From Fibrobacterota bacterium (GTDB lineage: Bacteria > Fibrobacterota > Fibrobacteria > UBA11236), in assembly GCA_028287505.1 (NCBI GenBank), contig JAQBPN010000095.1:1-34898 (forward strand): a DNA stretch of 34,898 bases, written 5' to 3'. Within the stretch, counting starts at the first letter, position 1, and each line of letters starts with the position of its first letter. The notes under the pieces are model-generated. The model had not been told where the DNA came from, searched no databases, and saw only the letters and a list, made by a program, of their open reading frames with translations. Shown here in pieces: positions 22,256 through 24,338 of this stretch. The translations under genes were made by a program, and so were the position numbers.

Positions 22256-22506
22256 AATTGCTACGGAAAATCTAATGTAAATTGGGGAAGGATCATGAGC
22301 CTGCCGAAGCATGCCGCCACCGGAACCTTCTCAAAGGATATCCGGGACTCCCACCCCCAACCCACCCCCGGGAGTTTTCTTCGCATCGACCCCCTACTCA
22401 TGCCTGATGGGCAGGGCGGATTCAAGGATGGAAGGATGGCGGTTGCTTCGGCTCCGGGATCCGGCCGCGTCGGCTTACCAGGATCGACCGCGTCGGCCGA
22501 CGGAAT

Positions 22507-23340
22507 TCAGCCCGGCTGGTTTTTCAACAGACATTCATAACGATCGCGCAACGGACCCATGGAAGGATCCTGGCGGATCTTTTTGATCGCCTGTTTGCGG
22601 ATTTGCCGGATGCGCTCCGCGGAAAGGTTCAAGCCGCTGCCCACTTCCTTGAGGGTGACGGGATTCTCGTCCCCCAATCCGTAGAAGCCCTTCACCACCT
22701 TCCGCTCCCGTTCCGACAAGGAGGCGAGCATGCGATCGGTGAGCCGCTCTCCCAAGGCAAGCTCCGTCTCCAGGGAAGGATCCGGCGCGGCCTGATCGGG
22801 CAGCACGTCGGACCATGATTTTCCGGTTCCCGGCTGCATGGCGTTCAAAGAGGAACACCCCTGGCTCAGTTGCCGGATCACCCGCAGGTCCTCATCCTCG
22901 ATGCGCCCCTGTTTCTCGGCCTGGAGCGCCTTGCGGAGCCGGAAATATTGGTTGGCGGGAAGCCGTATGAGATACCCCTTCTCATTCAGGGCTTTGGTGA
23001 TGTAGGAGCGGATCCACCAGACGGCATAGGAGATGAACTTCACGCCGCGCTCCGGATCGAAGGTCTCCACGGCGTGGATCAGCCCGATCGAGCCTTCGCT
23101 GATCAGGTCCACCACCGGCATGGGACAAGCGCGGTATTCCAGGGCGACCTTAACCACAAAGCGCATGTTGGCCGCGATCAGCTTTTCCCGGGCGCGCACG
23201 TTGCCTTTGCGGAACAGACGGAACAAAGCGCCTTCGACATGGCCCGGCACCTGGGCGGATTTGCGGATGTCCTCCAGGTAGGCTTTGAGGAAATAGTCGG
23301 CGTAATGCCCGGCCGAGGCCGAGACCGCGTCTTTTACCAT
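22507..23340 (-). CDS. Alternative sigma factor of the sigma-70 family (RpoD/RpoS-like)
   Basis: A 277-residue group 2/3-type sigma factor. Region 2 spans about residues 50-120: LIAANMRFVVKVALEYR, then VDLISEGSIGLIHAVETFDP and the -10-recognition helix KFISYAVWWIRSYITKAL. Region 3 is short (about 125-200). Region 4 (about 205-260) contains the helix-turn-helix TLKEVGSGLNLSAERIRQIRKQAI. Region 1.1 and the large non-conserved insert of a primary sigma are absent, so this is an alternative factor rather than RpoD. ATG 23338-23340 is chosen because AGGAGG lies nine bases upstream; a start at 23361 would place that site inside the gene. A sigma-54-type promoter is placed to give a leader of about 20 bases, see 23370-23386. 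Confidence 0.93.
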   Translation of the reverse strand: MVKDAVSASAGHYADYFLKAYLEDIRKSAQVPGHVEGALFRLFRKGNVRAREKLIAANMRFVVKVALEYRACPMPVVDLISEGSIGLIHAVETFDPERGVKFISYAVWWIRSYITKALNEKGYLIRLPANQYFRLRKALQAEKQGRIEDEDLRVIRQLSQGCSSLNAMQPGTGKSWSDVLPDQAAPDPSLETELALGERLTDRMLASLSERERKVVKGFYGLGDENPVTLKEVGSGLNLSAERIRQIRKQAIKKIRQDPSMGPLRDRYECLLKNQPG

Positions 23341-23369
23341 GCGCGTAGTCCTCCTGTACATTGTCCAAT

Positions 23370-23386
23370 GGCAAAGAAAATGCCAA
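23370..23386 (-). promoter_or_regulatory. Probable sigma-54 (-24/-12) promoter of the sigma-factor gene
   Basis: On the minus strand this reads TTGGCATTTTCTTTGCC. The sigma-54 consensus is TGGCAC-N5-TTGC with GG and GC elements separated by ten bases. Here GG (23384-23383) and GC (23372-23371) are exactly ten bases apart, with TGGCA and TTGC intact. Transcription would start near 23359, only a few bases before the AGGAGG ribosome site (23355-23350) and about 19 bases before the ATG. The same stretch is also a partly palindromic TGGCA/TGCCA hairpin, so chance cannot be excluded. No enhancer-binding protein gene lies in the window. Confidence 0.6.
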
Positions 23387-23558
23387 TCCGGGGACTCCGC
23401 AAAGCCGGAGGAATCGCCACTTGCGGCGCCGGCCAGGGCCGGGAAAGCACCAAATGGAATATCCCTTCACCCCAAAACGTCGAAGAAAGATCAGTTCCGG
23501 CTTCCCCGGGCGCGCCGTTATGCTAATTTTTCCGGACAGGACAGTAATGGGAGGCGCG

Positions 23559-24338
23559 GTGAAAAAAGTCCGGATTTTGTCGTGGAACGTGAACGGTTTC
23601 CGCGCGGTGTATAAGAAGGGATTCATGGACTGGATGCACAAGGAGAAGCCAGATATCCTTTGCCTCCAGGAAACCAAGGCTGAGGAAGGCCAGATCCAAA
23701 AGGAACTCCAGGACGTGGAAGGCTATCATTGGGTCTTCTGCTCTTCCCAGAAAAAGAAAGGCTACAGCGGAGTGGCCATCTTCTCCAAAGAGAAACCGTT
23801 GGAGGTGGCGAAGGGATTCGGGCACGATTCCTTCGATAGCGAGGGCCGCACTTTGGTCGCGACCTTTCCCGGGTTCACGTTGTGCAATGTGTATTTCCCC
23901 AACGGCAAATCCGGTCCGGAGCGGCTCCAATACAAAATGGATTTCTACAAGCACTTCCAGGCCTATACTTCCAAGCTGCGCAAAAGCGGGAAGAGCGTGA
24001 TCGTATGCGGGGATGTGAACACGGCCCATAAGGAAATCGATCTGGCGCGGCCCAAGGAGAATTCCACCGTCTCCGGTTTCCTCCCGGAGGAACGCGCTTG
24101 GATGGATGGGTTCCTCGCCGGGGGATTCATCGATACGCTGCGCCTGTTCAATCAGAAACCCGCGCAGTATTCCTGGTGGGACATGAAGTCGGGAGCCAGG
24201 GCGCGCAACGTGGGTTGGCGCATCGATTACTTCCTGGCCAGCGAGGATCTGAAGCCGAAGATCAAGGACGCGTACATCATGCCGGAAGTGCTCGGCTCGG
24301 ATCATTGCCCGGTGGGATTGGATCTCGTTACCGATTAG
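23559..24338 (+). CDS. xth: Exodeoxyribonuclease III / AP endonuclease
   Basis: A 259-residue DNA repair nuclease that cuts abasic sites and degrades 3' ends. All family motifs are present: SWNVNGFRA (Asn10 and Asn12), LCLQETK (metal ligand Glu38), a Tyr near 112 (CNVYFPNG), GDVNTAHKEIDLA (Asp152, Asn154), WRIDYFLAS, and the terminal LGSDHCPVGLDL (Asp248, His249). GTG 23559 is preferred because it gives the usual N-terminus (KKVRILSWN) and has GGGAGG four bases upstream; ATG 23547 is an alternative adding four residues. Length is normal. It is divergent from the sigma-factor gene and followed by a strong hairpin-type terminator. Confidence 0.94.
   Translation: MKKVRILSWNVNGFRAVYKKGFMDWMHKEKPDILCLQETKAEEGQIQKELQDVEGYHWVFCSSQKKKGYSGVAIFSKEKPLEVAKGFGHDSFDSEGRTLVATFPGFTLCNVYFPNGKSGPERLQYKMDFYKHFQAYTSKLRKSGKSVIVCGDVNTAHKEIDLARPKENSTVSGFLPEERAWMDGFLAGGFIDTLRLFNQKPAQYSWWDMKSGARARNVGWRIDYFLASEDLKPKIKDAYIMPEVLGSDHCPVGLDLVTD

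Follow-up and report, generated by a model that had tools for sequence, protein, structure and literature searches.

A probable sigma-54 promoter before a short sigma-70-family sigma factor, with class-wide relatives and a convergent structured RNA

Promoters of the sigma-54 type stay off until triggered by a specific activator, and where such a promoter stands before the gene of another sigma factor a single signal can become a genome-wide switch, the textbook case being Borrelia virulence. Among the other sigma factors relevant here, HrpL is an ECF sigma factor, while rpoH encodes the heat-shock sigma factor and has other promoters as well. In Borrelia burgdorferi, the Rrp2-RpoN-RpoS pathway uses sigma-54 together with an NtrC-type activator to turn on a sigma-70-family sigma factor (PMC3037356, PMC2940757, PMC12655853). 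In the HrpS-RpoN-hrpL pathway of Pseudomonas syringae and Erwinia amylovora, a sigma-54 promoter precedes the gene of an alternative sigma factor, the Erwinia activator site being described at -138/-125 (PMC8657755), and in Salmonella the sigma-54 site TGGCACGGTTGTTGCTCG is reported before rpoH, a sigma-70-family gene (PMC3844500). For the class considered here (probably Fibrobacteria), a literature search that mostly did not extend to subscription papers, and in which incidental mentions were judged by titles and the openings of abstracts, returned nothing on sigma-54 or on a cascade of this kind; a word search of the main text of a survey of sigma-54 regulons (PMC12316311) likewise did not find Fibrobacter.

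The window, by which we mean the whole stretch of 34,898 bases analysed here, is contig C86 of a draft genome (G000; 6.07 Mb, 98.7% complete). It contains a locus that is like the Borrelia pathway in that a putative sigma-54 promoter stands before the gene of a sigma-70-family sigma factor, and like Salmonella rpoH, where a sigma-54 site also precedes a gene of that family (Table 1). It differs from the hrp system in that HrpL runs a type III secretion system, whereas the gene here encodes RpoD-like regions 2 and 4 and no such system was seen among its neighbours. We consider it highly probable that the element is a genuine promoter for sigma-54 (RpoN) at the head of the cascade proposed below, the call of the promoter appearing right and its reading as a cascade likely.

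Table 1. Positions of the features discussed, numbered along the window.
Feature	Coordinates	Strand	Remark
Sigma-70-family sigma factor, 277 aa, regions 2 and 4	22507..23340	-	'C86-type'
-24/-12 element TTGGCATTTTCTTTGCC, putative sigma-54 promoter	23370..23386	-	no variation among four orthologues in 14 of 16 columns
Predicted transcription start (+1)	23359	-	from the -12 position
Shine-Dalgarno sequence AGGAGG	23350..23355	-	same or nearly so in orthologues
Candidate upstream activating sequence, two boxes	23449..23480	-	about -122 to -91; invariant in four of four orthologues
Exonuclease III-like (Exo_endo_phos) gene, divergent neighbour	23559..24338	+	in the same four of six genus genomes
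Conserved structured RNA, about 160 nt	22295..22454	+	multi-arm junction closed by a stem; hairpin loop rich in C
Invariant 16-mer AAATCTAATGTAAATT, just 5' of the RNA	22268..22283	+	identical in four of four

The element is a 17-mer that occurs once in the window, on the minus strand at 23386-23370, where ten bases separate its GG (23384-23383) from its GC (23372-23371), exactly as a preliminary description of this DNA had it. That description had also expected transcription to begin about 19 bases before the gene and just ahead of the ribosome site, and the predicted start agrees, giving a leader of 19 bases that runs to the ATG at 23340, with AGGAGG in between; the mechanically listed open reading frame begins at 23361, and 23340 is the start common to the orthologues. 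The element is the sole exact copy of TGGCAN6TTGC in the window's 34,898 bases. When up to two mismatches are allowed, 120 sites are found in the window against 117.6 expected, and because such loose matches occur at the chance count only the exact core carries weight. Measured against the 12 letters of the consensus the element scores 9, departing from it by T for C and no G after TGGCA and by C instead of A/T after GC; this score, reached by 4.5% of shuffled upstream regions of the window's type, is not decisive alone. Genome-wide counts give the exact pattern a chance rate of about 3e-6 per position, and thus an estimated 0.004 or so chance matches in the 40-base stretch before each of some 30 window genes.

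The gene is present in three of the five other genomes of the genus, with protein identities of 85% (G002), 71% (G003) and 67% (G004), while G001 and G005 have no orthologue, only paralogues at 51% or less. Identity above 51% was found, among 60 relatives, in three genus members only, and outside the genus the best 80 loci listed, among which near relatives may be missing, reach 39% at most. All four members with the gene keep TGGCATNYTCTTTGCC at 27-31 bases from the ATG, within an element that reads TGGCATTTTCTTTGCC in the window's genome and in G002, TGGCATCCTCTTTGCC in G003 and TGGCATTCTCTTTGCC in G004; the -12 position lies 31 bases from the ATG in the first two and 27 and 30 bases from it in the others. 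Over 210 bases of upstream DNA, identity to the window's genome is 61% for G002, 54% for G004 and 42% for G003. An alignment of the four orthologues shows no variation in 14 of the element's 16 columns, compared with 14 of 132 in the other intergenic DNA (the two boxes described below being excluded), so that the region beside the element is nearly saturated with changes. It is the nearly fixed position in four of four orthologues that places the element above chance, and conservation upstream of orthologues, which the preliminary description had put forward as a check, is borne out.

That the element is a chance resemblance, kept only through the kinship of the four genomes, is in our judgement extremely improbable. 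Genome-wide there are 49 exact matches to TGGCAN6TTGC and 37 to a reversed control pattern, so that most exact matches are background, but such a resemblance sits badly with other upstream DNA that is 42-61% identical, with the count of invariant columns just given, and with a paralogous gene that has the same arrangement across the class. An excess of start codons is also found behind the exact sites: in 16 of 47 (the window's site and L020 being left out) a good Shine-Dalgarno sequence and start codon follow 12-110 bases downstream, compared with 46 of 891 shifted controls, which makes it very likely that a functional set of sigma-54 promoters exists in the window's genome.

The same letters might instead serve a repressor or other regulator as a palindromic operator (GGCA-N7-TGCC), with the sigma gene transcribed from an ordinary promoter; TGGCATTTTCTTTGCCA is indeed an imperfect inverted repeat in the window's genome and in G002. 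We regard this as very unlikely. TGCC is followed by A, A, C and T in the four genomes, so that the outermost pair of the repeat breaks down, whereas the sigma-54 letters are preserved; the distance to the ATG suits a -12 promoter; in the class-wide relatives the sequence is TGGCACGN4TTGCT, with ends that are less palindromic; and a scan for sigma-70-type promoters found none upstream of the sigma gene, the only one lying further off at 22281-22254.

The corresponding machinery is encoded in the genome. One rpoN gene, which the preliminary description had proposed to look for, was found there (Sigma54_DBD, E 3e-62; an open frame of 593 codons), and rpoN was found in all 61 genomes of the set of relatives. 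Matches to the activator domain number 25 in the window's genome, 20 of them with E below 1e-55. With rpoN, these 20 strong activator genes and the element in four of four orthologues, the earlier suggestion that the sigma factor may be switched on by RpoN and an enhancer-binding protein gains support.

The closest paralogue is a separate sigma factor found class-wide, which has its own, better -24/-12 element (TGGCACGCATCTTGCT and variants), in most cases placed some 44-110 bases ahead of the start. Among the 29 genes fetched, which do not comprise every match, 9 or more of the 12 consensus letters are matched within 150 bp in 11 of 11 from the genus, family and order and in 18 of 18 from elsewhere in the class; two more positives, L216 and L217, bring the total to 31 of 32, and L043, placed in the class-wide group by the tree, is without the element. 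In 13 aligned class-wide upstream regions TGG-A and TTGCT are invariant. Shuffled upstream regions reach a score of 9 in about 2% of cases and 10 in 0.2-0.75%. A second paralogue in the genus has no score of at least 9 within 150 bp in any of six cases, nor was an element found within 250 bp of any of 16 other sigma genes, two in each of eight species. Among sigma genes of other phyla (79 of the best 80 loci listed, with 200 bp examined), 3 of 79 have the element, all of them from spirochaetes. The presence of the promoter before a class-wide relative makes the analogy with Borrelia stronger than was first thought. Strong -24/-12 elements, with 10-12 of the 12 letters, also precede the spirochaete sigma-70-family genes L106, L113 and L138, which suggests that wiring of the Borrelia type may be wider among spirochaetes. 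The class-wide gene, at 51% identity, is in all five other genomes of the genus and was not seen in the window's genome, through either loss or an assembly gap.

Further upstream of the window's gene are two boxes, ACGTTTTGG (23480-23472) and ATTTGGT (23455-23449), which lie 22 bp apart in all four genomes. The combined pattern TTTTGGN16ATTTGGT has one copy per genome in these four, at the sigma locus (a control pattern has 0), and no copy in G001 or G005, both of which are without the gene. Enhancers of sigma-54 promoters are described as lying usually about 70-150 bp upstream (PMC3844500); the candidate boxes sit at this distance, within an intergenic region that the divergent gene has too. 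Being upstream of the exonuclease gene as well, the boxes could serve it instead, the sigma promoter then being real and using another enhancer. This is unlikely, though it deserves some weight: the exonuclease gene has the same distribution in four of six genomes and the intergenic region is common to both, but the distance from the end of the boxes to the -24 element is 62-63 bp in three of the four genomes (73 bp in G004), and their 22-bp spacing in all four fits a protein bound on one helix face.

Our preferred reading assigns the boxes to the sigma gene. RNA polymerase with sigma-54 would sit at the -24/-12 element and fire only after remodelling by an AAA+ enhancer-binding protein, probably bound at the box pair some 90-120 bp upstream of the start; the sigma factor produced, short and of the RpoD/RpoS-like group, would probably recognize the -10 element in an altered way, and a signal sensed by the sigma-54 activator would be turned into a switch of promoter choice. 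In many class-wide upstream regions (L044, L056, L036, L037, L042 and L161) a dyad resembling TTGTCA-N6/7-TGACA lies further upstream; as it is unlike the boxes upstream of the window's gene, the two gene copies probably answer to different activators. The arrangement seems to have been inherited, since the class-wide sister appears to be driven likewise, with another dyad upstream. The window's gene would then be an extra copy with its own activator input, and the whole looks like an ancestral cascade from sigma-54 to a sigma-70-family factor that has been duplicated in the genus with a different enhancer.

Within the window no activator gene was found. The six genomes of the genus hold 115 activator loci in 29 families, one of which shares the distribution of the sigma gene: G000:C39:132698 and its orthologues, which are of response-regulator type and have the motif GAYTGA, given also as the motif of HrpS (PMC8657755). 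The mean identity of activators to those of the window's genome is 83.8 for G005 and 80.7 for G003, and as G005 is thus the nearer, a single outgroup does not simply account for the shared absence. We treat this family as a lead only and do not claim it as the activator; an adjoining -24/-12 site is found in three of four genomes, without the boxes. Such a site, on the plus strand at about 2203 in L274, 2116 in L350 and 2173 in L369, lies downstream of a divergent GAYTGA response-regulator activator and before another gene.

Of the parallel with Borrelia rpoS drawn in the preliminary description, the analogy is apt; the identity of the protein is another matter. Its best NCBIfam model is proteobacterial RpoS (TIGR02394), but at 176.4 bits against a cut-off of 378.7 it is, unlike the Borrelia factor, not RpoS by the NCBI criterion, nor is it RpoD (TIGR02393), where it scores 146.4 bits against 354. 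A separate RpoD-like protein of about 500 residues in the same genome scores 317 bits, also below the cut-off of 354. Two RpoD-like genes of about 500 residues, L191 (G000:C27) and L204 (G000:C55), have nearly equal scores, through duplication or assembly redundancy. At the site that we take to correspond to Gln437 of sigma-70, the window's protein has Ser (WWIRSYIT) and the class-wide one Ala (WWIKAYIT), with Gln in the RpoD-like protein of the window's genome; from the residue other than Gln at this site we infer that -10 recognition by the window's sigma factor is probably altered.

A tree of 59 rows (8 class loci having been dropped to thin the set, and 26 of the best 80 loci listed being used) places the genes of the class on one side of a fully supported branch, with the four window-type genes clustering at 99/99. 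The spirochaete genes with sigma-54 elements lie elsewhere, the branches starred in the tree forcing at least three changes of label; a single clade uniting them with the class was not found, in a sample to which Borrelia RpoS itself is external. The class and the spirochaetes examined thus form separate clades. Within the class, the class-wide and window-type genes are not exclusive sisters with respect to the promoterless second paralogue (supports 93/96 and 84/91, not fully settling the point), and on this placement the promoter was either ancestral and then lost in the second paralogue or arose twice. A further difference from Borrelia is that the genus has two differently wired copies, one with a convergent RNA. 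Although the promoter type itself is already known, finding the same conserved wiring before a short sigma factor that is highly conserved in another class suggests a recurrent design rather than a peculiarity of a pathogen, and its signal, activator and regulon are tractable questions in cultured members of the class. The points deserving follow-up are the class-wide conservation of the promoter and the co-occurring RNA, the latter a small and testable addition.

This RNA lies on the strand opposite the sigma gene, directly beyond its 3' end, and the conserved block that comprises it and the preceding 16-mer (22265-22454) occurs once per genome in the four that carry the sigma gene and is absent from G001 and G005. 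A covariance model, with stricter filters in force, found the RNA in 4 of 126 genomes of the class, the same four that have the gene, and no match over the gathering score of Rfam 15 was found in the window. Identity to the window's copy is 93% in G002, 86% in G004 and 73% in G003, compared with 80%, 68% and 69% for the sigma coding sequence. The predicted fold has a long stem that encloses several arms, and one of these bears the loop ACCCCCAACCCACCCCC. Based on four sequences only, standard pairs make up 96.3% of 216 pair cells, and both partners are changed in six pairs, a number reached in 0 of 500 shuffles and compared with 0-4 in slid controls. Wobble cells with a Watson-Crick pair in another sequence number 20, against one A-C cell. 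The plus strand is favoured as the RNA strand, the structure having itself been derived on that strand, which favours this outcome; folding energy is lower for the antisense strand in three of the four sequences. A protein gene was considered in place of an RNA and rejected: a 5' ATG is conserved, but indels not in multiples of three break the frame between the four. Pairing of the RNA with the sigma leader was also rejected, 195, 58, 140 and 30 of 200 shuffled leaders pairing as strongly.

The RNA may be a regulator of the sigma factor, a target of it or a mere neighbour. A fuller reading, in which the cascade is ancestral to the class and the genus duplicate has acquired a new enhancer and a functional tie to this hitherto undescribed RNA, as its regulator or dedicated target, we hold tentatively, inclining slightly towards doubt. 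The 16-mer AAATCTAATGTAAATT, of which each of the four genomes has just one exact copy, located here, may be the promoter or operator of the RNA.
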